From: an uncultured Lachnospiraceae bacterium | GTDB lineage: Bacteria > Bacillota > Clostridia > Lachnospirales > Lachnospiraceae | Direction of reading: 5' to 3' | NCBI GenBank assembly: GCA_902801515.1 | Contig: CADCII010000016.1 | Location: forward strand, 1-36,162 | DNA: 36,162 nt | Part shown: piece after piece, positions 679 through 28,288 of the stretch | How the letters are laid out: every line of letters starts with the position of its first letter | How positions within the stretch are numbered: the stretch's first letter is position 1 | The notes under the pieces: generated by a model | Databases searched by the model: none | Seen by the model: only the letters and a program-made list of their open reading frames with translations | Told to the model about the DNA's origin: nothing | Position numbers and translations under genes: made by a program

Positions 679-834
679 TTTCCATGCTCTCCATATATAA
701 TGCCATCTTTCAGATACATAAGTTTCCTCCCGGAACGGAATGTTTCGCACCGCGTTATTCCAGGCAGCATGATGGATTCTTTTCTATACCATTTATTATA
801 TACTATTGGACCATACTATATGCTGGAAACAAAA

Positions 835-957
835 TGAACACCAGAAAACTGTTTTGTGAACGCCAGAAAACAAAAACCGCGAAATTTGAACAGATGTGCG
901 CCAAGTTTGAACACAAAAAACTATTTTTATAAGTATAATGGTATTGTGATATTTTAC
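835..957 (+). repeat. Phased repeat block A (TGAAC / GAAAAC units)
   Basis: TGAAC occurs at 835, 857, 887 and 908, and GAAAAC at 844 and 866. The last C of each unit falls at 839, 849, 861, 871, 891 and 912, mostly 10 or about 20 bases apart. The block ends in AGTATAATGGTATTGTGA (932-949). From about 859 onward it aligns with block B at an offset of 157-158 bases, so A and B are diverged tandem copies. Confidence 0.6.
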
Positions 958-981
958 CGAGGAAGAGTCCTCAGCAAAGGT

Positions 982-1115
982 GGAAACAAATGGAAACATA
1001 AAAAAGCATGGAGGAAACGCCAGGAAACAAAAACCATGAAATTGGAAACAAAGTGCCCTCAATCGGAAACACAAAAAAACATTTTCATGGGTATAATGGT
1101 ATTATGATAATTTAC
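982..1115 (+). repeat. Phased repeat block B (GGAAAC units)
   Basis: GGAAAC occurs six times, at 982, 992, 1013, 1023, 1044 and 1065: spacings of 10, 21, 10, 21 and 21 bases, close to whole turns of B-DNA. The block is closed by GTATAATGGTATTATGAT at 1091-1108. It is a diverged tandem copy of block A, with the unit sequence changed in parallel at most positions. Confidence 0.65.
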
Positions 1116-1155
1116 TCACAGAACTCGATATTTTTGACACGGTAGCAGAACAAAA

Positions 1156-1250
1156 TGAAACATGAACCCTGAAAATTGAAACGGAATGAACAGGAAACCC
1201 TGAAATTTGAAACACAATGACACTCTGTTTGGTGTAGAATTGTAAAATAA
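1156..1250 (+). repeat. Phased repeat block C (TGAAAC units)
   Basis: TGAAAC at 1156, 1177 and 1208, TGAAC at 1163 and 1187, and GGAAAC at 1193. The main units end at 1161, 1182, 1191 and 1213, again about 21, 9 and 22 bases apart. The closing AT-rich sequence is GTGTAGAATTGTAAAATAA (1232-1250). It is less regular than block B but has the same architecture. Confidence 0.5.
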
Positions 1251-1262
1251 CCAGTTGGAAGA

Positions 1263-1363
1263 GATACACGCTCGATACATTGCGATACACTTCCGATACA
1301 TACCGGATACATTGTTGCACAGAAAAATGAAAAAACAGTGCTGATAGTCGGCAAGTGGATACA
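1263..1363 (+). repeat. GATACA iteron-like array (block D)
   Basis: GATACA occurs at 1263, 1274, 1284, 1295 and 1306 (spacings 11, 10, 11, 11) and again at 1358. Most copies are followed by C or T. Direct repeats at one helical turn upstream of a primase/RepA operon are the usual look of iterons bound by a replication or control protein. Binding is inferred from layout only. The block leads into GTGTACAATAATATTGTC at 1381-1398. Confidence 0.65.
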
Positions 1364-1366
1364 CCA

Positions 1367-1394
1367 TTGCACATTTTTATGTGTACAATAATAT
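1367..1394 (+). promoter_or_regulatory. Candidate promoter for the primase-repA operon
   Basis: TTGCAC at 1367-1372 and TAATAT at 1389-1394 are separated by 16 bases, an acceptable but imperfect sigma-A promoter. It lies just after the last GATACA unit and upstream of the terminator hairpin at 1436. A transcript from here would have to pass that hairpin to reach the first gene. Confidence 0.3.
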
Positions 1395-1435
1395 TGTCGT
1401 AAACTGAATAATAAGCACGGCAGACAGGATTGAAG

Positions 1436-1462
1436 GATCGCTAAGCACAGCGGTCTTTTTTT
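1436..1462 (+). terminator. Intrinsic terminator / possible attenuator abutting the primase-like gene
   Basis: GATCGCT (1436-1442) pairs with AGCGGTC (1449-1455), with one G-T pair, around a six-base loop. It is followed directly by seven T residues at 1456-1462. The gene's first ATG lies immediately after the T-run at 1463 and the preferred start at 1499. No gene on this strand ends nearby, so premature termination in the operon leader is the likeliest role. Confidence 0.6.
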
Positions 1463-1498
1463 ATGCCCTTCTGCCGGGAAAAGAACTCCGGAATATTT

Positions 1499-2146
1499 AT
1501 GAAAGAAAGCATTTTCACAAAGGTAAAACAGATTGTGACCACCAGATCTGCGGCTGCGTTTTATGGGATCCAGACAAATCGCAGGGGGATGGCCCGATGT
1601 CCGTTTCATGACGATCACACGCCAAGCATGATCTTGGATCAGAACTACTACTGCTTTGGCTGCCAAGCAAAAGGCGATGTGATCGATTTTGTATCAAAGC
1701 TGTTTGGGATCTCACCGATAGAAGCTGTACATAAACTGATCCGGGATATGAATCTTCCGGTTGCAGAAGACAGGAAAAAGGACTCGATAAAACAAAAGAC
1801 TGGATGCCGGGAGATTCCGAATCAGAATGCCGGGAAGCAGCTTCAAGAACTTGAGGAATACTATTATACAGTACTGATCCGATACAGGAACAGGTTACTG
1901 GAGCAGAAAAACAGATACGCGCCTGAAAAAATGGGGGACGATTGGGATCCGCGATTTACGGAAGCACTCTACAACTTGTCCCGGACAGAGTATCTGTTGG
2001 ATCTGCTCCTTTTTGGTGCACCAGATGAAAAGATTGAGATGATGAAAGACCAAAAGAACGAGGTGATTAAACTTGAAGAAGCAGTGCGAAGAATTAACGA
2101 AGACGCAGGAGGCGGATATCCTGACCCTGCATCAGGACCTGATTAA
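1499..2146 (+). CDS. CHC2 zinc-finger primase-like protein of a mobile element
   Basis: A 215-residue protein from ATG 1499; an in-frame ATG at 1463 directly follows a terminator T-run and has no binding site, so 1499 is preferred (weak CCGGA upstream). The N-terminal part shows the DnaG-type zinc finger: CPFHDDHTPSM followed by YYCFGCQAKGDVIDFV, giving a C-x2-H...C-x2-C ligand set. The family uses this to recognise single-stranded template. After it come about 110 charged, helical residues; there is no TOPRIM catalytic domain, so it is not a full primase. Such short CHC2 proteins sit in front of RepA-like ATPases in Clostridia integrative elements. The next gene overlaps its end in another frame by 74 bases, suggesting translational coupling. 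Confidence 0.8.
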   Translation: MKESIFTKVKQIVTTRSAAAFYGIQTNRRGMARCPFHDDHTPSMILDQNYYCFGCQAKGDVIDFVSKLFGISPIEAVHKLIRDMNLPVAEDRKKDSIKQKTGCREIPNQNAGKQLQELEEYYYTVLIRYRNRLLEQKNRYAPEKMGDDWDPRFTEALYNLSRTEYLLDLLLFGAPDEKIEMMKDQKNEVIKLEEAVRRINEDAGGGYPDPASGPD

Positions 2147-3272
2147 AAAGCGGAGTCCCATTCTGTCTATGCAGGTTCCTATGAGAACTCAGACAGGAAG
2201 AACTGATTTGAAAACAATTACACTGACAGCACTGTATGAGATGACATTCGCTCCCAGAACGCCGGTAATCGAAGGCCTGCTTTATTCCGGAACATATCTT
2301 TTTGCCGGCAGCCCGAAGATCGGGAAGTCTTTCCTTATGGCGCAGATCGGCTATCATGTGGCAATGGGAATACCGCTATGGGATTATCCTGTCAGAAGAG
2401 GGGATGTCCTGTATCTTGCACTGGAGGATGACTACTCCAGATTGCAGAGCAGGCTAAACCAGATGTTTGGAGTTGAAACGGTAGACAGGCTTCATCTTTC
2501 AATTCAGTGCAGAACACTGGGAGATGGTCTGGTCGAACAGATGGAGGGGTTTATCAAAAAACATCCTGATACCAGACTGATCATAGTCGATACGTTTCAG
2601 AAGGTTCGGGAAGTGGGAAATGAAAGCTACAGCTACTCCATGGATTATCAGAATATCGCCGCACTAAAGGGAGTCAGTGATGCACACAATCTGGCCATTG
2701 TGATCGTACATCACACAAGAAAAATGGAGGCGAATGACCAGATTGATATGGTCTCCGGTACGACGGCTCTCGTTGGCGCTGCTGATGGAACACTTCTATT
2801 GAAAAAGAAACAACGAACGGACACTGAGGCAAAGCTGCTGATTGTCGGCAGAGATCAGGAGGACCAGGAACTTACGCTGGAATTCAATCGGGAACGCTGT
2901 ATCTGGATGCTGGCCTGTGCAGAGAAAGAACCTCTCCAGAAGCCGATCGAGCCTATCGTCAGGAAGATCGCCGAATTCATGAAAGGACAGACACAGTGGT
3001 CCGGAACTGCATCGGAACTTCTGGAACTTTTGCCGGATCCGGATATGAAAGCGAATATCCTTACCCGGAAACTGAATGTTAATGTTTCAGTCCTCTACAA
3101 TGAATTCGGGATTCTGGTTACGAGGGAACGAAGCAGCTTCAGGCGTGAGATTACGCTTACCAGGATGGAACCGGAAGAAAGGGCATCCGCATACGAAAAT
3201 GACGATATGACGATAAATGACGGTATTTCTGACAGTGGGCATGTCATGGAAAAATCGTCATTTTCGTCATAA
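2073..3272 (+). CDS. RepA-type AAA ATPase (AAA_25 family), mobile-element replication protein
   Basis: 399 residues from a TTG at 2073, supported by GAGGTG eight bases upstream inside the preceding gene; the first internal ATG has no better site. Walker A is GSPKIGKS at about residues 79-86 and Walker B is RLIIVDTFQ at about 168-176, followed by VIVHHTRK and SGTTALVGAADGTLLL, the layout of RecA-fold hexameric helicases of the RepA/AAA_25 group. Residues about 290-370 look like a winged-helix DNA-binding tail. In known elements such ATPases act with a CHC2 primase to unwind an iteron-containing origin. That fits the repeats upstream of the pair, but function here is inferred. The C-terminal tail is rich in Ser, Asp and Met. 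Confidence 0.85.
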   Translation: MKKQCEELTKTQEADILTLHQDLIKKRSPILSMQVPMRTQTGRTDLKTITLTALYEMTFAPRTPVIEGLLYSGTYLFAGSPKIGKSFLMAQIGYHVAMGIPLWDYPVRRGDVLYLALEDDYSRLQSRLNQMFGVETVDRLHLSIQCRTLGDGLVEQMEGFIKKHPDTRLIIVDTFQKVREVGNESYSYSMDYQNIAALKGVSDAHNLAIVIVHHTRKMEANDQIDMVSGTTALVGAADGTLLLKKKQRTDTEAKLLIVGRDQEDQELTLEFNRERCIWMLACAEKEPLQKPIEPIVRKIAEFMKGQTQWSGTASELLELLPDPDMKANILTRKLNVNVSVLYNEFGILVTRERSSFRREITLTRMEPEERASAYENDDMTINDGISDSGHVMEKSSFSS

Positions 3273-3750: not shown

Positions 3751-4986
3751 ATGGAAAAGACCTCTCTGAAAATGATACTGCATGCACTCCCGCAAGATGA
3801 TATGATGGAGCTGGAGCAGATGATTGACAAAGAAAAGATGAAACGAAGCGATCAACGTTATCTGTCGTATCATCTCGGCAAAATCAGTATTACGAAAGAT
3901 GGGAGGTGGACGACTAACTGCCACACAGGGCATGGTGCAGGAAGAAAGCAGAAAAAGATCACCTGCCGGAACCGGGAGGAATTAGAGCGCCGCATCATTT
4001 CTTTTTATAAGGAAGCAGAGATGCAGGAGTCTGTGACGATCTCGCAGGTATGTACGGAGTGGCTGAATGAAAAGCTGACGTACAAAGAGATAGGCGGACC
4101 GACCTACACACGCTATATGACCGATTATAACCGGTTCCTTAATGGAACACCGCTAGGGAAGCTGCCAGTCATATCGCTCACTTCGCAGGCTCTGCGGCAG
4201 TCAATCAAGGATCAGATTATCGAGCACTCCCTGTCTCGCAAGGCATACAAGCAGTTGCATATTCTTCTGCGCGGTTCACTGCGTTATGCCAGAGAAAATG
4301 GATATACCGAATTCGCAGCCGGAGCATTTTTCGCGGATCTAGTCCTGCCGGACAGAATGTTCTCCCGGCCGCAGCGTCGTGTGGCAGAGAAGGAAACTTT
4401 CAGTGACGATGAGGTACGGCTATTAATGGATTATCTCTGGAAGGAGCAGGATCTGCGGGGGTTAGGGCTGATTCTTATGTTTCAGACGGGTATGCGAGTA
4501 GGTGAACTGGCAGCACTCAGAAGAGACAATGTTCACGATGGAAAGATCTTGATCACAGGAACAGAAGAAGTTTACACTGATCCCGCTACAGGGCGGAAAA
4601 TTTGTGAAGTAGCCGACCATGCGAAGACAGAAGCCGGAGAAAGAACCATTATTCTACCTGCCCAGGCTGAAAGAACACTGAAGGCGATTCGTGTAAAGAA
4701 TCCGTTCGGGGAGTTCCTTTTTATGGATAAGCTTGGACGGATCCGCGGCAAACGGTTTAATACCTGGCTCAAACGCGCCTGCAGAAAGGTCGGGATTCCG
4801 GAGCGGTCAACGCATAAGATCAGGAAAACCTATGCTTCGATGCTGCTTGGCTCCGGCGTTGATGAGAAACTTGTAACGTCTCAGATGGGGCATACAGATA
4901 TTTCATTGACCAAGGGGATCTATTATTACAACCGGGATTCTGAGGAGATAAAGAAGCAGGCGATCACAAGTGCGATTAGTTTCTGA
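3751..4986 (+). CDS. Tyrosine recombinase / phage-type integrase
   Basis: 411 residues from ATG 3751, with AAGGAG eight or nine bases upstream. Residues 40-75 resemble an arm-binding domain (HLGKISITKDGRWTTNCHTG). Residues about 92-190 form the SAM-like core-binding domain (VTISQVCTEWLNEK). The catalytic domain contains the Arg in FQTGMRVGELAAL, the H-x-x-R box in THKIRKTYASMLL, the downstream His in QMGHTDISLT, and the nucleophile Tyr in KGIYYYNRD. Length and domain order match complete integrases of integrative elements. It inserts or excises DNA at an attachment site. The gene points at the 3' end of a tRNA-Met gene about 120 bases further on, a classic target, although no second copy of the tRNA end was found in the window. 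Confidence 0.93.
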   Translation: MEKTSLKMILHALPQDDMMELEQMIDKEKMKRSDQRYLSYHLGKISITKDGRWTTNCHTGHGAGRKQKKITCRNREELERRIISFYKEAEMQESVTISQVCTEWLNEKLTYKEIGGPTYTRYMTDYNRFLNGTPLGKLPVISLTSQALRQSIKDQIIEHSLSRKAYKQLHILLRGSLRYARENGYTEFAAGAFFADLVLPDRMFSRPQRRVAEKETFSDDEVRLLMDYLWKEQDLRGLGLILMFQTGMRVGELAALRRDNVHDGKILITGTEEVYTDPATGRKICEVADHAKTEAGERTIILPAQAERTLKAIRVKNPFGEFLFMDKLGRIRGKRFNTWLKRACRKVGIPERSTHKIRKTYASMLLGSGVDEKLVTSQMGHTDISLTKGIYYYNRDSEEIKKQAITSAISF

Positions 4987-4992
4987 AAAGTA

Positions 4993-5026
4993 TAGCCAGT
5001 TTAGCCAAAATCAGCCATTTTAGCCA
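4993..5026 (+). repeat. TAGCCA direct repeats after the integrase gene
   Basis: TAGCCA or CAGCCA occurs at 4993, 5002, 5012 and 5021, 9 or 10 bases apart, with an inverted TGGCTA at 5030-5035. Regular repeats next to an integrase gene and an expected attachment site could be arm-type binding sites for integrase or an excisionase. This role is inferred from position. Confidence 0.4.
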
Positions 5027-5034
5027 AAATGGCT
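5013..5034 (+). terminator. Hairpin after the integrase gene, weak terminator candidate
   Basis: AGCCATTTT (5013-5021) and AAAATGGCT (5026-5034) form a perfect nine-base stem with a four-base loop. The following sequence is ATTTAAAAAA rather than a long T-run, so termination would be weak. It overlaps the TAGCCA repeats. Confidence 0.35.
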
Positions 5035-5051
5035 ATTTAAAAAATCAGTGC

Positions 5052-5098
5052 AAAGAAAAACCTTGCAAATGTCATTCCACAAACAACATCTGCAAGGT
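5052..5098 (-). terminator. Terminator of the tRNA-Val/tRNA-Met operon
   Basis: Read on the minus strand, CCTTGCAGATGT (5097-5086) pairs with ACATTTGCAAGG (5072-5061), a 12-base stem with one G-U pair, and is followed by TTTTTCTTT. It starts seven bases after the end of tRNA-Met. Because it is intact, the mobile element's right end must lie to its left or have rebuilt it on insertion. Confidence 0.75.
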
Positions 5099-5104
5099 AT
5101 TCAG

Positions 5105-13371: not shown

Positions 13372-13416
13372 TAGTTCACATCACTATTGTCTATATGGGG
13401 AAGGGGGTATTGTCCA

Positions 13417-15915
13417 GTGATTAGTATTCCTGTTTATAATATGATTATTCTCCCGGACATCTCTATGACCTTCAAGAAGGACTTCTTTGATGATGATGTG
13501 TCGGGTACTATCCATGAAGGTGAAAAGATTCTGTTTCTGTTCAAGAAATCTGAAAAGAGCAGACGGAATCTGACCGGCAAGGATTTTTATCCCATTGGTC
13601 TGACCGGCGTGGTTGAGGCTGTGGATGACGACGGAGATATCACGGTGCGTTCTGAGGACCGTATGAATATCGGAGATATCATCGTATCGGAGAAAGAGAT
13701 CTATGCGGATGCCGTGATCCGGCCGGACATCAAAGATGTCAGCGAGGAAGACCGCAAGAAGCTCCTGGAGACGCTGAAGGCGCGTATCTCTGAGTTTGTT
13801 CAGAAGTTTCCGTGGGGACTGATGGTCCGCACCTATATCAACCGTTGGAAGAATCCGGAGGAGTGTGCGACAGCACTCAGTGCTTATTTCTCTATGGATG
13901 CGGACGAGCGGTTTGCGATCCTTGCGGCGGATAAGGAGTCAGAGCGGCTTGAGATGATCGAGAAGGCTGTCTATGGCTTTATCGCTGTTTCGGATGTGAC
14001 CAATGAGGCCCAGGAGCATGCGAAGGAGACCAATGAGAAGCTCTACCGTGAGGACGCGCTCAAGAAACAGATCAGTTTTCTGCAGAAGCAGCTGGATGAG
14101 ATGCATCCGGAAAATGTGTCTGACGTCAGGAAGTTTGAGGAGAAGGTAGCGAAGTCCGGCATGAATGAAACTGCCCGCAGGGAGGCGGACAAGGTTCTCG
14201 GACGTATGAAGCAGGAGGGCAAGGACAGCCATGAGTACGGCCTGCTGTATGACTATCTTGACTTTGTGACTTCTCTGGACTGGAAGAAGGAGAAATTTAA
14301 GAAGATCGATCTTAATAAGGCCCAGGAGGTCCTGGATGAGGATCACTACGGCCTGAAAAAGGTGAAGAACAGGGTCATCCAGCAGCTTGCTGTCATGAGC
14401 CTGAACAAGAAGCAGTCCGGTACGATTCTGCTGTTTGTCGGTGCACCCGGTACAGGCAAGACAAGTATCGGCCAGAGTATCGCGAAGGCGCTTGGGCGTG
14501 AGTATGTCCGGATATCGCTTGGCGGCGTAAGGGATGAGGCTGAGATAAGAGGTCACAGAAGGACCTATATCGGAGCCATGCCGGGCCGTATCATGAACGC
14601 GATGAAGAATGCCGGAACTTCCAATCCTGTCATCGTGTTGGATGAGGTAGACAAGCTGAGCCGGGACTATACCGGAGATCCTTCCAGCGCTCTTTTGGAG
14701 GTGCTGGATCCGGAGCAGAACTTCAGCTTCACCGACCATTATATGAATGTTCCCTATGATCTGTCGGACGTTTTATTTGTCTGTACGGCAAATACCACAG
14801 ATACAATACCGGAACCGCTGCTGAACCGTATGGAAGTGATTCAGTTCCCGGGCTACACAGCGGTTGAGAAGTTCCAGATCGCGAAGCGTCATCTGCTGCC
14901 CAGGGCCAGGAAGGCGACCGGGATCTCGGAAGACGCGCTGGAGGTGAAGGATGATGCGATCCGCGCAGTCATCGACAATTTCACCATGGAGAGCGGTGTC
15001 CGCGGACTGAAGAAGCAGATGGAGACACTGTGCAGGTATGCGGCCGTAGAGATCGTTGAGAATCAGTCCAAGTCAGCGGGAAATGAAAAAGGCGCGAAGA
15101 AGAATGCTGCGGACAGAGATTCAGGAAAAACAACAAAGACGTCCGGAAAATCCGCAAAGGGTAAGACAGTTCCGAAAAAGGTCGTCGTAGGTCCCGATGA
15201 TCTGCGCAAGTATCTCGACCAGAAGCCGATTCGCCATGACCAGGTGAAGGAAGAGAAGAGACCGGGCATTGTGACCGGACTTGCCTGGACTGCGGCAGGA
15301 GGAGAGATCCTCTTTATCGAGACACTGTTCACAAAGGGAACCGGCAAGGTGGTAGTGACCGGACAGCTTGGCGATGTCATGAAGGAATCCGTACAGATTG
15401 CTATCTCTCTGGTAAAAGCGATGTATCCGGACAAGGTCAAACTGTTTGCGGAAAATGACCTGCATATCCATGTTCCGGAAGGTGCGATCCCCAAGGACGG
15501 GCCGTCGGCAGGCATCACGCTGACGACTGCGCTTGCAAGCCTTGTTACTGGACGCGAAGTCAGTCCGCTCTGGGGTATGACCGGTGAAGTATCTCTTCGC
15601 GGCGGAGTGATGCCGATCGGAGGACTTCCGGAGAAACTGATGGCAGCCCAGAGAGCAGGCATCACCCAGGTGTTCATCCCTGAAGAGAATAGAGAGGATC
15701 TGGAAGAGGTCGCTGAAGAGGTGAGGAGTGCACTGAAGATCTTCCCGGTGAAGAAGGTCAGCGATGTTCTGGAGATGCTGCAGCTTCAGCCGCTCGTCTC
15801 GGAGAAGAAGGGCAGGAAGAAGAAGGAAAAAGGGATCGCTGCAGATCCGTTCCACAATGTTGAGGCTTTCTGGGGCGTAAAGGAAAACCCGATCAAGCTG
15901 CGTCCGGTTGAATAA
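13417..15915 (+). CDS. lon: ATP-dependent protease Lon
   Basis: 832 residues from a GTG at 13417, preceded by AAGGGGGT at 13401-13408. The N-terminal substrate-binding domain covers about 1-300 with a coiled-coil around KKQISFLQKQLDEMHPEN. The AAA+ module has Walker A GAPGTGKTS (from 342), Walker B VIVLDEVDKL (about 406) and the box RISLGGVRDEAEIRGHRRTY. A Lys/Ser-rich insert of about 40 residues (549-590) separates it from the protease domain. That domain has the catalytic Ser697 in KDGPSAGI and Lys740 in GLPEKLMAA, 43 residues apart as in E. coli Lon. A basic C-terminal tail follows. Lon degrades misfolded and regulatory proteins in the cytoplasm. The CIRCE operator upstream predicts heat-shock induction through HrcA. 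Confidence 0.97.
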   Translation: MISIPVYNMIILPDISMTFKKDFFDDDVSGTIHEGEKILFLFKKSEKSRRNLTGKDFYPIGLTGVVEAVDDDGDITVRSEDRMNIGDIIVSEKEIYADAVIRPDIKDVSEEDRKKLLETLKARISEFVQKFPWGLMVRTYINRWKNPEECATALSAYFSMDADERFAILAADKESERLEMIEKAVYGFIAVSDVTNEAQEHAKETNEKLYREDALKKQISFLQKQLDEMHPENVSDVRKFEEKVAKSGMNETARREADKVLGRMKQEGKDSHEYGLLYDYLDFVTSLDWKKEKFKKIDLNKAQEVLDEDHYGLKKVKNRVIQQLAVMSLNKKQSGTILLFVGAPGTGKTSIGQSIAKALGREYVRISLGGVRDEAEIRGHRRTYIGAMPGRIMNAMKNAGTSNPVIVLDEVDKLSRDYTGDPSSALLEVLDPEQNFSFTDHYMNVPYDLSDVLFVCTANTTDTIPEPLLNRMEVIQFPGYTAVEKFQIAKRHLLPRARKATGISEDALEVKDDAIRAVIDNFTMESGVRGLKKQMETLCRYAAVEIVENQSKSAGNEKGAKKNAADRDSGKTTKTSGKSAKGKTVPKKVVVGPDDLRKYLDQKPIRHDQVKEEKRPGIVTGLAWTAAGGEILFIETLFTKGTGKVVVTGQLGDVMKESVQIAISLVKAMYPDKVKLFAENDLHIHVPEGAIPKDGPSAGITLTTALASLVTGREVSPLWGMTGEVSLRGGVMPIGGLPEKLMAAQRAGITQVFIPEENREDLEEVAEEVRSALKIFPVKKVSDVLEMLQLQPLVSEKKGRKKKEKGIAADPFHNVEAFWGVKENPIKLRPVE

Positions 15916-15942
15916 GCGGCACATAGAGTATACTTGACACAG

Positions 15943-15988
15943 AGATCCATATATGGTTCAATTAATACAACCATATATGGATCTTTTT
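15943..15988 (+). terminator. Intrinsic terminator after lon
   Basis: AGATCCATATATGGTT (15943-15958) and AACCATATATGGATCT (15969-15984) form a perfect 16-base stem with a ten-base loop, followed by TTTTAT. It is 28 bases after the lon stop codon and separates lon from the next operon. Confidence 0.85.
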
Positions 15989-16034
15989 ATATGTTTAAAA
16001 CCGTATTTGGCTTTTCTGATGGAAGGGGGCTGCC

Positions 16035-16853
16035 ATGACGATCGAGCAGATGCGGGAGAGAAAGAAGGAACTGGGATATACAAATGAGCAGCTGTCACAG
16101 CTTTCAGGAGTACCGATCGGCACGCTTCAGAAAGTCCTGGGTGGCGCAACGCGCTCGCCCAGATACGATACGCTTCAGTGTATAGAGGCAGTACTCTGGC
16201 CGGAAGGAGAGGCGGATTCACGATCTGTGATAAGAGAGGACAGCTCCTGCAGAGTGAAGGATCCGTATGTCTGGGACAGACAGGGAACCTATACGCTCGA
16301 TGACTATTATGCCCTGCCGGATGAGAAGAGGGTGGAACTGATCGACGGGGTCTTCTATGACATGGCTTCACCCAGTGGAGTGCATCAGGAACTCATCGGA
16401 CTGCTGTATCTGATCTATGCAGGTTATGTACGAAGCAGGAAGGGAACCTGTAAGGTATTCCTGTCACCGTTTGACGTGCAGCTGGATTGTGATAACCGGA
16501 CTATGGTGGAGCCGGATCTGCTGGTAATCTGCAGTCGGGAGAAAATCCGGATGCGATGTATATACGGAGCACCGGATCTGGCAATAGAGATCGTTTCTCC
16601 TTCGTCCAGGAGAAAGGACCTGATCCTGAAGACACATAAGTACGAACATGCCGGCGTCAGGGAGTACTGGATCATAGATCCCGGGAAACGTCAGGTCATC
16701 GTCTATGATTTTGCGCATGAGAACTATCCGGTGATCTACGGTTTTGAGGACCGTATTCCTGTTGGAATCTGGGAAGGGGATCTGACAGTGGATTTTGCAC
16801 AGATCAGTGAAGAGATCGCATATCTGTATGAGGAGGGTATGGAGACAGAATGA
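16035..16853 (+). CDS. Uma2-family (DUF820) nuclease-like protein fused to an N-terminal XRE-type HTH
   Basis: 272 residues from ATG 16035, with GGAAGGGGG six bases upstream. Residues 1-55 form a helix-turn-helix of the XRE kind ([34 protein letters not shown]). Residues about 85-262 are the Uma2/DUF820 fold of the PD-(D/E)XK superfamily: [20 protein letters not shown], then [28 protein letters not shown] with the catalytic-type E and K, and [14 protein letters not shown]. These families are predicted endonucleases, but no cellular target is known. The fusion implies sequence-guided DNA binding. Its stop overlaps the ispF start by four bases (ATGA), so the two are probably co-translated. Confidence 0.88.
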
Positions 16854-22576: not shown

Positions 22577-24388
22577 ATGAGATATTCTAGATTATTTGGA
22601 ATGGTGACTGCGATAGGTTTGTCCGCCTGTATAATGACTTCTGCCCTTGCCGGGGAACCGGAACAGACGCTGGTCGAAATCGGATCAGAAGAGGAGTTAG
22701 CGGGAAACGAAGAAACGGTTGTCGAATCTGAGAAAGCAACGATAGTTTCCATAGAGACTGAAGAGGCAGCCGAGAATATCGGGAATTCAGATGAAACGGA
22801 AGAACCGGATGTCTGGAATGAGAAAATAGCATCGGAACCACAGAAATCTGGAGATTATTCTTATATTCTGCTGGATGATGGAAGCGCAAAGATTGTGGAA
22901 TATAACGGGTCAGATACGGATCTGGTCATCCCCGATGATGTTGACGGTCATTCTGTTTCCTCCATCGCTGAGGACGCGTTATTGTTCGGTAATAATATCC
23001 GTTCTGTATCTATACCGGACAGCCTGGTGAGTGTTGATGGAAATCCATTTAAGTACTGTATGTCTCTTTCACAGTTTTCCGTTTCCTCAACTCAGCCTGC
23101 ATTTGCCGTGATAGAAAATGTATTGTTTGAGATGGCGGACAAAAAGCTTGTTGCTTATCCGGCAGGCAGCACAGCTGATACTTATGTAGTACCTGATGGA
23201 ATTGAGAAGATAGGAGAAACTGCATTTTCTGTATGCGGGTCTCTGACGAGCGTCACATTGCCGGAGTCTATTATTGAGATTGGAGACTATGCATTCAATG
23301 GCTGTTATACCCTGTCACAGATCACAATTCCCGGAAGTACTGCAGTAATCGGGGCAAATCCTTTTGCAGCATGTGCGTCACTCAAATCAATTCAGGTATC
23401 GCCGGAAAACGAATACTATGCTAACCATGAGGGTGTACTGTTTAACAAGCAGGATCTGATGCTTGTCGCTTATCCGTGTGCGCATGGAGTATCAGAAGAA
23501 GATGTGATTGACATTTCCTTAGGGGATCAGCTTGCTGATACGGAATATGAAGTTCCGAGCGGCATTGTTCATATCGGTGACGGAGCTTTTTATGGGTGCA
23601 CTGATCTGGTCACCGTCACACTTCCGGATACCATCGTATCGATTGGGGAGGCTGCTTTCTTCCAGTGTGAAAATCTTAAAACACTTGATATCCCGGAAAA
23701 GGTATCTGAGATAGGCGCATCGGCTTTTAGCGGCTGCAGCAGTCTTTCCAGCATCAATCTGCCGGAGAATATGACAGTGATCAAAGACAACCTTTTTTCT
23801 TATTGTTCTTCCCTGAAGAAAATTGAATTGAATCCCAAAATCACATCAATAGGAAAATGTGCTTTCTTCTACTGTGAAAAGATGGAGGGGATAGATCTGC
23901 CGGAAAGTCTTACGGAACTTGGAGAGGAGGCTTTCGGATATTGTTCAAAGATTAAGACCGCTGCCATTCCCAATCATCTCGAAATAATAGAGGACAGTAC
24001 TTTTACGGGATGTACTTCATTGTCAGATCTTTCTCTTCCTGATAAATTGCAGTCAATCGGAGACCGGGCGTTTTACGGGTGTACTTCACTTGGCGAGGTT
24101 GCCATTCCAGAGAACTTGAAGCATATAGGAGAAGAAGCTTTTGCGGAGTGTTCACCGTCAGCATCTTTCCTGATCGTACGCGGCAGTTCTGCCAGAGATT
24201 ATTTTGTCAACAGCGGACTGCAGTATTCTTACACAGATGCTATGGACTGGCTGACGAATGCAAACAAAGGGCAGGAGGAAGTGCCTGAAGAACAGGCCGG
24301 AGTTGAAACAGAAGAGCAAACAGAACAGGATGAGACAGAGACGGAATCAGAGACAGAATTTGATGAGCTCGCCTGGTTGAACTCCTGA
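22577..24388 (+). CDS. BspA-like leucine-rich-repeat exported protein (1 of 3)
   Basis: 603 residues from ATG 22577, with AAGGAGG upstream. A signal peptide covers about 1-26 (TAIGLSACIMTSALAGE). An acidic Glu/Thr linker follows to about 90. The cap domain YSYILLDDGSAKIVEYNG then leads into many 23-residue LRR_5 repeats of the form IGDYAFNGCYTLSQITIPGS to about 545. The C-terminus has a shared motif (YSYTDAMDWL) and then an extra Glu/Thr-rich tail ending ELAWLNS. BspA proteins are surface or secreted adhesins that bind host proteins; binding here is not shown. No sortase motif or repeat anchor is visible. Confidence 0.88.
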   Translation: MRYSRLFGMVTAIGLSACIMTSALAGEPEQTLVEIGSEEELAGNEETVVESEKATIVSIETEEAAENIGNSDETEEPDVWNEKIASEPQKSGDYSYILLDDGSAKIVEYNGSDTDLVIPDDVDGHSVSSIAEDALLFGNNIRSVSIPDSLVSVDGNPFKYCMSLSQFSVSSTQPAFAVIENVLFEMADKKLVAYPAGSTADTYVVPDGIEKIGETAFSVCGSLTSVTLPESIIEIGDYAFNGCYTLSQITIPGSTAVIGANPFAACASLKSIQVSPENEYYANHEGVLFNKQDLMLVAYPCAHGVSEEDVIDISLGDQLADTEYEVPSGIVHIGDGAFYGCTDLVTVTLPDTIVSIGEAAFFQCENLKTLDIPEKVSEIGASAFSGCSSLSSINLPENMTVIKDNLFSYCSSLKKIELNPKITSIGKCAFFYCEKMEGIDLPESLTELGEEAFGYCSKIKTAAIPNHLEIIEDSTFTGCTSLSDLSLPDKLQSIGDRAFYGCTSLGEVAIPENLKHIGEEAFAECSPSASFLIVRGSSARDYFVNSGLQYSYTDAMDWLTNANKGQEEVPEEQAGVETEEQTEQDETETESETEFDELAWLNS

Positions 24389-24405
24389 TTAGGAAAGGAA
24401 AAGCC

Positions 24406-26769
24406 ATGAAAAGAAGAATAGCATATCTGATACTCCTGGGAGCAATGCTGATCCTTTCGATTCTCTGCGTTGCAGTTGTATACGGGACTGAGGGCATATA
24501 TGTTGAGGCAGACACAGAGACGCAAACGGAAGTGGAGACGGAAGCAGAGATCAATGAAATGACAGAGGCTGCTCCTGAAGACAACTTTACATATCTTGTT
24601 GATGACGATGGAAACGCCCGAATAGTCGGTTGCAGCGGGGCTTCATCTGAAGTTTCTATACCTGCTGAAATTGACGGGCATCCGGTCACAACCATCGGAG
24701 AGAATGCATTTTTATATTGCTATAATGTGAAGAAGATTCGGATCCCTTCTTCCGTTACTGTGATTGAAGCAAATCCATTCATTGGATGTGAGGAACTGAC
24801 TGAATTTGAAGTGGATAAAGAGCAGGAGAACTTTGCCGCCATTAATGGAGCTTTGTTTGAGAAGAGCAGCAGGTCTCTGATTGCCTGCCCGGGTGGCTTC
24901 TCCGGAACGTTCGAAGTTCCTGAAGGGATTCTGTCTATTGGAGATTCTGCTTTTGAGGAGTGTGCGCTTCTGGAGGAAGTCCTGATTCCGAATACGGTTA
25001 CATCAATTGGGAAAGGGGCTTTTTCATCCTGCGCTGCATTAGCGTCAGTCACAATCCCGGAAAGTGTTGCAACGCTGGGCGAAAGTGCTTTCTACGACTG
25101 TGAAAATCTTTATGAGGTTGATATGCCTGACTCTGCTTCTGCAGCAATAAAAGAAATCAGCGATGGCCTTTTCTATGGGTGTGGCAGTCTGTATTCAATT
25201 GAGCTGCCTCCTTCTGTCACACGGATCGGAGAGGGTGCATTTTCTTACACAGGACTATCCGAACTGATGCTTCCGGATGCGGTCGAAGAGATAGGTGCAT
25301 CAGCATTTTCTAATTGTTACGATCTTTACTCGATTGTAATTCCTAGTCATGTAAAGAAAATCGGTCCCCATGCATTCGAGGGATGTCAGAGTGTTGAAGA
25401 AATTACCATGGAAGAAGGTATTGCTGAGATCGGGGATTATGCTTTCAAGGAAACAGCTATTTACGAAGTGTCAATACCTCTGTCGGTGAAGACAATCGGG
25501 AATAATCCTTTCGCACTCTGCGGGAATCTTACGGAGATTTCCACCTCTGTCGAGCAGCGTTTATTCTCAGTAGTAGATAATGCCTTATATGATACAGAAT
25601 CCAAAAAACTGGTTAGCTACTGTGCTGGCATATATGACGAAGACATAGTAGTACCTGAGGGAGTTGAGAGTATTGGTGCTTCTGCGTTTAATTCCATGGA
25701 ACAGATAACTTCTGTTGATCTTCCGTCCACTCTGAAAGTGATTGAAGATGAAGTGTTTGCATATTGTACACAGCTCAGAAGTGTATCATTTACCGGTAAC
25801 GGCCTGACTTCAATTGGAAGTGAAGCTTTCAGGGGATGTTCTTCTCTGGGGGAGATCAGAATACCGAACAGCTGCTCTTTTATTGGTGATTTTTGCTTCG
25901 GTGATTGTACAGATCTATATAGTGTACGTCTCCCACTGTCACTGAATAAAATTACTATGGGACTATTTGAATATTGTGAAAACCTGAGCAGGGCGAATCT
26001 GCCGGAAGTTACTGAGATCGAGGACTGGGCATTCAATGGCTGTGAGAGCTTAAGGACAGTAAATATGCCTGAAACAGTTCATGCGATCGGATTATATGCC
26101 TTCTGTGAATGTCCCATAACGGAAGTGACGATTCCTTCCAGTGTTTCTTACATCAATGCATATGCATTTTCCAGATGTGAATCTCTGAGCAAAGTAACTC
26201 TTCCGGAACAATTGAAAATGATCTGTGAAGGGGCTTTCTCAGACTGCTCTTCATTGAGCGAGATCATCATTCCGGAAGGGGCTGTTGCTATAGAGGACTA
26301 TGCTTTTTCAGGATGCGGGAGCCTTCATTCTGTCAGTGCTCCTGATTCCATGAAGTACATCGGATCACTCGTATTCGAAGACTGTAATGAGCTTTATCAT
26401 ATGAATCTGTCGGATTCAATTACTTCCCCCGTTCAGTTTACAGAGGAGGAACTGTTGATTCTGAAAGGATTATATGATCCGTATTCTCCAGACGCAGGTG
26501 AGACGGAAGCCGGGGATGAGACGGAAGCGGAAGCTGAGACAGAATCCGAGCAGAGAATGGAAGATATGATTGACGTGGCAGGAGATCAGCCGGTTTATGA
26601 TGAGTTTGATGAAAGTATTCTGGAAGGTCCCGGTATTCAAGAAGATACTTTTAAAGGCTGCGAAGATTTGACACTTACAGTAGGCGAGGAATCATATGGA
26701 AAACAATATGCCATTACGCATGGGTTCGATTACAACTATCCTGATTCCAATGATTGGTTAAATATGTGA
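24406..26769 (+). CDS. BspA-like leucine-rich-repeat exported protein (2 of 3)
   Basis: 787 residues from ATG 24406, 17 bases after the previous gene. The signal sequence is MKRRIAYLILLGAMLILSIL, ending about residue 28. An acidic Thr/Glu stretch precedes the same cap (FTYLVDDDGNARIVGCSGAS). LRR_5 units such as IGDSAFEECALLEEVLIPNT run to about 675. A Glu/Thr-rich segment (DAGETEAGDETEAEAETESE) interrupts before a last repeat-like piece and the terminal motif FDYNYPDSNDWLNM. It is the largest of the three paralogues, probably by repeat expansion, and has the same likely role at the cell surface. Confidence 0.88.
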   Translation: MKRRIAYLILLGAMLILSILCVAVVYGTEGIYVEADTETQTEVETEAEINEMTEAAPEDNFTYLVDDDGNARIVGCSGASSEVSIPAEIDGHPVTTIGENAFLYCYNVKKIRIPSSVTVIEANPFIGCEELTEFEVDKEQENFAAINGALFEKSSRSLIACPGGFSGTFEVPEGILSIGDSAFEECALLEEVLIPNTVTSIGKGAFSSCAALASVTIPESVATLGESAFYDCENLYEVDMPDSASAAIKEISDGLFYGCGSLYSIELPPSVTRIGEGAFSYTGLSELMLPDAVEEIGASAFSNCYDLYSIVIPSHVKKIGPHAFEGCQSVEEITMEEGIAEIGDYAFKETAIYEVSIPLSVKTIGNNPFALCGNLTEISTSVEQRLFSVVDNALYDTESKKLVSYCAGIYDEDIVVPEGVESIGASAFNSMEQITSVDLPSTLKVIEDEVFAYCTQLRSVSFTGNGLTSIGSEAFRGCSSLGEIRIPNSCSFIGDFCFGDCTDLYSVRLPLSLNKITMGLFEYCENLSRANLPEVTEIEDWAFNGCESLRTVNMPETVHAIGLYAFCECPITEVTIPSSVSYINAYAFSRCESLSKVTLPEQLKMICEGAFSDCSSLSEIIIPEGAVAIEDYAFSGCGSLHSVSAPDSMKYIGSLVFEDCNELYHMNLSDSITSPVQFTEEELLILKGLYDPYSPDAGETEAGDETEAEAETESEQRMEDMIDVAGDQPVYDEFDESILEGPGIQEDTFKGCEDLTLTVGEESYGKQYAITHGFDYNYPDSNDWLNM

Positions 26770-26779
26770 GGATATCAAC

Positions 26780-28288
26780 ATGAGAAGAAAACCATTTTGC
26801 GAAGTTCTGGCTGCCGCCATTGTCCTTGGCCTGAGCGGCGTGGCCTGTGTCCATGTACGTGCAGAAGAAAACAGCATTGCGGCCGGATGGGAATACACCT
26901 ATAAGGTTCTTGAAGATGATACAGCCCAGATCACCGGTGCTGCATACAGGGAAGATGAGGACTATTCGGAAAGTGACGAATCACAGCTTTATTCAATAGA
27001 GATTCCTGAGGAGATCGACTCTCACACTGTTACAGGAATCGCAAAGGAAGCATTTCGTTATTATGACTCCGTTACAGACGTAAGTATACCTGCAAGCGTT
27101 AAATCGATTGGCGAGAGGGCATTTGAAAGCTGCAGTGACATCTCGACTCTTAAGATTGCTGATGGGGTAGAAACGATAGGCAAGCATGCGTTTGCATATT
27201 GCGATGGTTTGAGTTCAGTTCAATTGCCGGACAGTGTTGTGAAGATTGAGGGAAATGCGTTCGAGCACTGTGAAGGTCTGACGGATTTTTATGTGACACC
27301 GGATCATCCTGTCTATGCAGTACTGGATGGCGTGCTGTACGAGAAAGATGGGAAGAAGCTTTGCATTTATCCGTACGGAAGAAGCGAATCCACTTATAAA
27401 ATACCGGAAGATGTGCAGGAAATCGGCAGCTATGCTTTTTCCGGATGTGATGATCTTAATTCAATTGAACTATCTTCCACAGTGAAGAAAATCGGATCAG
27501 GAGCTTTTGCCGGCTGTAGTTCTCTGACTGAATTTACGATTCCGGATTCCGTTGAGGAGATAGGCAGCAATCCGTTCCGCAACTGTACATCACTGAAGAA
27601 GTTCCATGTTTCACCGGATCAGCCGAAATTCATCGATATTGATGAGGTGCTTTTCGATAAGACAAAGAGTTTATTAATCGCTTTTCCTTACAATTACAGA
27701 TCCAATCAATATGAAATACCGGAAGGAGTAAAGGAAATTGGCGCATATGCGTTTGAGGGCTGCAATAATATCAATAAGATAGAGATCGCGTCAACAGTCC
27801 AGGTAGTCGGAGACCATGCATTCGAATATTGTGATTATCTGTCGACACTTGTCTTCCCGGAGGGTCTGATCAGTATCGGAAAGTCAGCGTTCGCCTGGTG
27901 TACAGGATTTGAACGATTTTCAATTCCATCAACGGTACAGACAATCGGAGCGGCGGCATTTGACGAATGCTATAATCTGAAAAGCATAGAAGTGCCATCC
28001 GGTGTGGAAGATATAAGTGAGAATCTTTTCCGCTCATGTTCGTCTCTTTCGACGGTGATCATATCTGATGGAGTGAAAACAATCGGAAAAGATGCGTTCA
28101 GGTATTGTTATGGAATTGATGAGCTTGAGATTCCAGATAGTGTAAAAGAGATTGATGAAGATGCTTTTGAAGATTGCAACGCTTCCATGATGCTGATTGT
28201 CGGACGCAAATCGATAGCAAGAGAATACGCAAGAGAGCACGATATATTATATACATACACAGATGCGGACAGCTGGCTGCATAAATAA
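26780..28288 (+). CDS. BspA-like leucine-rich-repeat exported protein (3 of 3)
   Basis: 502 residues from ATG 26780, ten bases after the previous gene. The signal peptide runs to about residue 28 (LAAAIVLGLSGVACVHVRAE). The cap YTYKVLEDDTAQITGAAY leads directly into LRR_5 repeats (IGERAFESCSDISTLKIADG and similar) to about 465. The end, ILYTYTDADSWLHK, matches the ends of the other two. It lacks the Glu/Thr-rich linkers of its neighbours, so it is the most compact form. Confidence 0.88.
   Translation: MRRKPFCEVLAAAIVLGLSGVACVHVRAEENSIAAGWEYTYKVLEDDTAQITGAAYREDEDYSESDESQLYSIEIPEEIDSHTVTGIAKEAFRYYDSVTDVSIPASVKSIGERAFESCSDISTLKIADGVETIGKHAFAYCDGLSSVQLPDSVVKIEGNAFEHCEGLTDFYVTPDHPVYAVLDGVLYEKDGKKLCIYPYGRSESTYKIPEDVQEIGSYAFSGCDDLNSIELSSTVKKIGSGAFAGCSSLTEFTIPDSVEEIGSNPFRNCTSLKKFHVSPDQPKFIDIDEVLFDKTKSLLIAFPYNYRSNQYEIPEGVKEIGAYAFEGCNNINKIEIASTVQVVGDHAFEYCDYLSTLVFPEGLISIGKSAFAWCTGFERFSIPSTVQTIGAAAFDECYNLKSIEVPSGVEDISENLFRSCSSLSTVIISDGVKTIGKDAFRYCYGIDELEIPDSVKEIDEDAFEDCNASMMLIVGRKSIAREYAREHDILYTYTDADSWLHK

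Follow-up and report, generated by a model that had tools for sequence, protein, structure and literature searches.

Four blocks of short repeats in front of a primase-type gene are probably four tandem, activator-dependent promoters of the sigma-A type; a small integrative element would carry them at its left end and would use them as an OR gate responsive to helper elements. They were found in the window, that is, the whole stretch of 36,162 nucleotides from an uncultured Lachnospiraceae bacterium that was analysed, which makes up all of contig 16. Each promoter would consist of a -10 hexamer without a good -35 box and of an upstream operator array that repeats one word on one face of the helix, with the last operator copy touching the -35 position. 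The four promoters, all in the same direction, would feed a single leader with a terminator-like hairpin and then the CHC2/AAA_25 operon. A promoter region is more likely than iterons bound by RepA or by the CHC2 protein, because each block has a fixed 21-nt link to its -10 hexamer and the leader is conserved.

Anatomy and phasing of the four blocks

The arrays and their hexamers are the following:
825..912, plus strand: operator array of block A (TGAAC at 835, 857, 887 and 908; GAAAAC at 844 and 866; GGAAAC at 825)
934..939, plus strand: -10 hexamer of promoter A (TATAAT); the last unit ends 21 nt upstream
982..1070, plus strand: operator array of block B (GGAAAC at 982, 992, 1013, 1023, 1044 and 1065)
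1092..1097, plus strand: -10 hexamer of promoter B (TATAAT)
1147..1213, plus strand: operator array of block C (TGAAAC at 1156, 1177 and 1208, with degenerate copies between)
1235..1240, plus strand: -10 hexamer of promoter C (TAGAAT)
1263..1363, plus strand: operator array of block D (GATACA at 1263, 1274, 1284, 1295, 1306 and 1358)
1384..1389, plus strand: -10 hexamer of promoter D (TACAAT)

Every block has its own main unit: TGAAC in A, GGAAAC in B, TGAAAC in C and GATACA in D. An earlier note on this DNA had placed GGAAAC at six positions in block B, and all six were found again; it had also described A and B as tandem copies offset by 157-158 bp, and the offset measured is 158. Its view that the units have shifted together within each block agrees with the unit counts, with few exceptions. 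Block A contains four TGAAC, one GGAAAC (825) and two GAAAAC; block C has three TGAAAC accompanied by two TGAAC and one GGAAAC (1193), while blocks B and D carry six copies each of GGAAAC and GATACA, so that GGAAAC occurs outside block B at 825 and 1193. The units share a common core, GA(A/W)AC or GAAC, and the geometry of the blocks is identical: when these are aligned on TANAAT, units fall near -22, -43, -53, -64, -74, -85, -95, -106 and -117.

The helical phasing proposed in the same note was borne out by period analysis and by comparison with shuffled sequence. The best period of the unit positions is 10.5 bp, both for the 19 units of the window (R 0.96) and for 61 units in 13 blocks of four elements (R 0.92). 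Over the 125 bp that precede the hexamer, no other word of equal length is better phased than the block's own unit, and at most 5 of 1000 dinucleotide shuffles reach its phase score; this holds for all 13 block instances. Cruder measures are less distinctive. Copy number alone is unremarkable in four of the six A and C instances (P 0.036-0.134), which makes four of 13 overall, and single-base autocorrelation gives z values of only about 2.6-3.2 at 21, 52 and 73.

A fixed link to a promoter-like hexamer and a conserved leader

The distance from the last GAWAC or GAAC to TANAAT is exactly 21 nt in 13 of 13 blocks from the four elements. In the window, the plus strand has four instances of the pattern (GAWAC or GAAC)-N21-TANAAT, each at the end of a block, and the minus strand has none. 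A hexamer does follow each block, as noted earlier, at positions one to three bases away from those given then (934, 1092, 1235 and 1384 instead of 932, 1091, 1232 and 1381); the likeness among the four holds for A and B, while the hexamers of C and D fit the A/B sequence loosely. The best match to TTGACA with spacers of 15-19 has 3 of 6 bases in 12 blocks and 4 of 6 in one; because these -35 matches are poor, the promoters are probably activator-dependent. A plain sigma-70 scan of 600-1700 gave two sites, compared with 2.7 in shuffles, and none at the four hexamers. Transcription itself, activation rather than repression, and the class of activator are inferred.

Downstream of block D lie the leader and the genes of the element:
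1396..1462, plus strand: leader, whose terminator-like hairpin pairs 1432-1442 with 1449-1459 and is followed by a T run
1499..2146, plus strand: CHC2 zinc-finger (primase-type) gene, the first gene downstream of the array; the ORF list opens it at 1463, and 1499 is a judgement from relatives
2073..3272, plus strand: AAA_25 ATPase (RepA/helicase-like)
3751..4986, plus strand: the element's tyrosine integrase, whose gene stops some 118 bp short of tRNA-Met

The hairpin sequence of the leader is conserved in an alignment of the four elements, two of which were folded; the window leader (1395-1462) folds with a z of -3.2. At the T run, the sequence is TTTTTTTATGCCC in the window and CTTTTTCTATGCCC in the second element of the same genome, described below. 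The hairpin is absent from the list of a simple terminator scan, and Rfam gave no match there.

The CHC2, AAA_25 and integrase genes make up the small element of the window, near tRNA-Met. The array (825-1389) precedes the CHC2 gene in DNA without an evident gene, and appears to occupy the left end of the element. We infer the ends of the element because repeat searches at the window element and at two of its relatives (L057 and G397) yielded no convincing attachment sites. Between the integrase and tRNA-Met, at 4994-5030, there is a 19-bp direct repeat (AGCCAGTTTAGCCAAAATC, 94% match), possibly the recombinase sites of the right end. Elsewhere in the window, at 22577-28288, three large BspA-type leucine-rich-repeat proteins are encoded in succession.

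Related elements that carry the blocks

A second element of the same genome, L057, carries the blocks in the order B-A-C-D, followed by the leader, DUF3847, a MobA/MobL relaxase, CHC2, a DUF5906 helicase and an integrase that is 39% identical to that of the window. Its exceptions to the block units are one TGAAAC in A and one TGAAC in B. A gene with a Nudix domain (4620-5003) lies between blocks B and A (L057:4374-5122), as a cargo gene placed behind one promoter. Beyond the element, a second integrase gene and a convergent DUF5906 helicase gene were seen (L057:11550-14942, and L323, reverse complement, 13386-16778); this could be a head-to-head insertion of two elements.

In G374, the genome of another species of the genus, blocks A-B-C-D precede DUF3847-like and relaxase-like genes, with one GGAAAC in block A as the exceptional unit; the ORFs after this element resemble those of L057 in their first residues. 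In a third genome, G397, a conjugation operon is preceded by a lone B block with the same leader. This operon encodes a 2187-aa surface protein with SpaA domains, a T4SS-pilin-like and a TrbL-like protein (both assigned below the Pfam cut-off), a VirB4-like ATPase with a TraG P-loop, an NlpC/P60 protein and a relaxase. An integrase gene at 157 kb may be part of this conjugative element. The leader follows block D, or block B in the case of G397, and the genes downstream of the array vary: CHC2/AAA_25 in the window, DUF3847/relaxase in L057 and G374, conjugation genes in G397. A remnant of block D is also present on contig 56 of the window's own genome (L111/L071, about 2842-2945, minus strand), where by eye it adjoins a piece of a MobA/MobL-type relaxase gene.

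When the window blocks were compared with their nine counterparts, identity reached 257/268 in the units, 436/553 in the spacers and 333/412 in the hexamer-proximal part; these figures are slightly biased toward the units, which were defined on the window, and the comparisons are non-independent, block D of G374 being almost identical to that of the window. Although the block order changed in L057, the window, L057 and G374 each keep the four unit types distinct, which argues against simple drift.

The blocks have a narrow distribution. DNA search detected them in three of 19 genomes of the genus (the window genome, G374 and G397), and a model search of the same 19 returned these three at E < 1e-18; in 397 sampled genomes of the family, strong matches were limited to the window genome and G374. 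By blastn in 299 family genomes, the matches beyond the own genome were three of 31-40 bp, with no array by eye. The L057 array had no blastn match in plasmids or phages, and window positions 800-1500 had no megablast match in E. coli genomes.

Loci that share genes with the element were viewed as well. Twenty loci with AAA_25 relatives, some of them cut short, gave no block with model R1. By eye, no such array was present in 11 CHC2 loci of other genomes viewed on the array side (of 29), in nine of 29 DUF3847 loci viewed likewise, or in two more elements of the own genome. The earlier note had proposed that absence of the arrays from homologous elements would speak for chance or drift. The outcome is divided: the closest relatives have arrays, while the AAA_25, CHC2 and DUF3847 loci checked are without them.

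Weak model matches were also viewed by eye. Of 24 R1 matches outside the genus, one is the phage locus considered below, and none of the other 23 had a convincing array; no convincing array was seen in four of ten weak R2 matches outside the genus, nor in three of eight weak R1 matches within the genus that were viewed together with the contig-56 remnant. Types A, C and D were seen in no conjugative element or phage among the sequences searched.

In viral contigs, exact patterns for the leader, the D promoter and the B promoter had no occurrence. TATAATGGTATTRTGATA occurred in five stretches, two of them with TTGACA 17-18 bp upstream, and no array was seen there. Array patterns gave at least 120 stretches for GATACA and 71 for GGAAAC, from which the 40 best arrays with at least five units were singled out. 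Five viral contigs (L234, L271, L253, L285 and L291) carry several GGAAAC, mostly at multiples of 11 bp and followed by AT-rich DNA; these are perhaps phage replication origins.

Comparison with phage late promoters

One of the weak R1 matches is a promoter-like pair in a prophage, located between a phrog_36 regulator and the terminase small-subunit gene (phrog_51). Its E value was 2.7e-4 for its genome, with 397 genomes searched, and an equally weak match in G210 (E 1.9e-4) lies inside an apparent coding sequence. When the prophage locus was rescored with its flanks, two adjacent matches were obtained (E 1.5e-5 and 0.0013 over 151,614 bases). The regulator is sigma-region-4-like (phrog_36 E 1.2e-17), with Pfam Sigma70_r4 just below the cut-off. 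A blastn search of phages with the phage promoter produced weak matches only, the best E being 0.1 among the matches listed.

A tblastn search with the regulator returned 26 phage records, and 11 of these (28-36% identical) plus the first prophage locus were taken as a set of 12 loci. In nine of the 12, within 110 bp upstream of a leader hairpin, identical hexamers are spaced by 10 or 20-22 bp (ATGAGA, TGATAC, ATGATA, TGAGCA, AGTTCC, CAGAGT, AAGCCA, TAACAC and AATGTC), and the other three have no on-grid repeat. Ten of 20 repeat distances fall on the helical grid, compared with 1.6 ± 1.2 in 500 shuffles (maximum 6), on a grid that was fixed after the loci had been viewed. Two loci have GATAC-type units, like block D. 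With the exception of L392, which lacks TTTT there, every locus has a hairpin with T run as detected by script, and in five of these 11 the bases after the T run are TATGCC, as in the window.

Phage late promoters of the Ltr/RinA type are the closest working analogues of the blocks. These promoters are marked by a -10 box without a good -35 box, a trait shared with the window blocks, and those of TP901-1 (Alt) and phi13 (Ltr) have in common with them several direct repeats upstream of the -10/TATA box. For the most part, the 12 phage loci also share the hairpin leader with the window and have one private repeat type per phage. As described in PMC13123087, repeats upstream of the TATA box are required for activity of Ltr promoters, and Alt of TP901-1, in a study cited there, binds four imperfect repeats at -76 to -32. 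By analogy, the blocks would be served by Ltr/RinA-type activators with a sigma-region-4-like domain. The differences are threefold: a regulator gene lies beside the phage array and none beside that of the window; the window stacks four promoters of four types in tandem; and the phage promoters precede packaging and late genes, whereas replication, mobilisation or conjugation genes are found downstream here.

Search for an activator

No activator of the Ltr/RinA class was found among the window ORFs scanned (Pfam, PHROGs, NCBIfam) or among those of L057 (Pfam only). The only candidate is a 170-aa protein encoded about 5.4 kb from the G397 block (L354:1592-2104, minus strand), perhaps outside the conjugative element. 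It is weakly phrog_36-like (E 2.9e-5) and RinA-like (0.013), with no Pfam match. Among the 19 genomes of the genus, near-identical copies (95-99%) were detected only in G397 and G374, weak matches (22-26% identity) in three more, and no match at E 0.01 in the window's own genome. The G374 copy, at 95%, is weak evidence, with a chance of about 2 in 18, because the candidate was picked for its nearness to the G397 block. BLASTP between the candidate and the phage regulator was not significant; plasmids, phages and viral contigs contained no relative, and a PDB search gave nothing of use.

A response-regulator gene beside block B of L057 was considered as regulator and dropped, as the other elements have other neighbours there. 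Near a Tn916-type integrase, at L386:11225-11743 and its neighbour (minus strand), a gene for a protein with an HTH and an MntA-type antitoxin domain (NCBIfam) adjoins a small ORF that looks HEPN-like; the pair resembles a type VII toxin-antitoxin pair.

Weighing the explanations

With four different operator types and no activator found among the scanned ORFs of the element, the likeliest use of the blocks is as an OR gate, in which the element would be woken by any one of several activators that conjugative or other mobile elements bring in. The possibility that the four tandem promoters answer to one regulator, encoded by the element or the host or belonging to the BvgA/OmpR type of response regulators, strikes us as unlikely, though it deserves attention. 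The types would then be affinity variants or products of local homogenisation, which would suit the shared GA(A/W)AC or GAAC core and the identical geometry. Weak sites for response regulators can be helically phased. A promoter with several weak sites for a single response regulator is described in PMC7250471. Against one regulator stand the distinctness of the types in three elements, in one of which the block order changed, and the phage promoters of similar build, most of which have units of their own. Of the earlier proposals, a separate or co-evolving binding protein for each array fits best, given that the types are kept apart, that units are more conserved than spacers and that phage units are mostly private; distinct activators for distinct blocks would follow. 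It is possible that a repressor acts at the arrays.

The proteins named earlier as candidate binders, RepA and the CHC2 protein, are not supported by the contexts of the arrays. Plasmid iterons, too, are short repeats in direct orientation, spaced by one or two turns of the helix, and the window array, with its repeats on a helical grid, precedes replication-type genes; its AT-rich, -10-like sequences could then be unwinding sites. Still, what follows is a DUF3847-relaxase operon in L057 and G374 and, after the single block of G397, a conjugation operon, so that in these relatives the array is not tied to a cis replication initiator, nor are replication genes directly downstream; the fixed polarity, the exact spacing to the -10 hexamer and the leader hairpin set the blocks further apart from the iterons of plasmid replicons. 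We regard an origin as improbable. Even less probable are arm-type integrase sites beside attL. The array does appear at the left end of each element, next to unrelated flanking genes, but it spans 560 bp with hexamers at a fixed distance, and by eye none of the units occurs at 4987-5103, between the integrase and the tRNA. In addition, the integrase nearest the G397 operon, which may belong to another element than the operon, is 23% identical to that of the window over 182 residues and has a Tn916-type DNA-binding domain that the latter does not have. Chance or microsatellite drift, which would sit well with the weak autocorrelation and with the blocks of unremarkable copy number, is already contradicted by the phase tests, by unit conservation across elements and by the spacing found in every block; we give it practically no weight.

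Possible helper activation and its meaning

Islands of the SGI1 and MGIVflInd1 type are known from Gram-negative bacteria. Like SGI1 with AcaCD and MGIVflInd1 with SetCD, the elements described here show one promoter type both in an element of the mobilizable type and before a conjugative transfer operon, a sharing that concerns type B and the leader in one element (G397). Those islands live in other bacteria and are driven by one known activator, while here there are four site types and putative activators. SGI1 and related islands are presented as precedents for the use of a helper's activator in PMC7826253 and PMC5704250, and the latter, a review, considers it highly probable that most mobilizable elements use their helpers' regulators. 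We found no published description of stacked arrays of several types among the open-access PMC papers listed, which is not proof of novelty.

It is plausible that each promoter is tuned to a different helper element; by extension from the one shared type, four types would mean four different helpers. A more specific scenario, which we offer tentatively as something less than an even bet, is that a hitchhiking element has stacked the transfer-operon promoters of several unrelated helpers before its own operon, so that any one of a number of foreign activators wakes it. To our knowledge, helper sensing by the mobilizable elements of gut Firmicutes has been little studied. If the operator types match helpers, sequence alone could predict which helpers an element answers.
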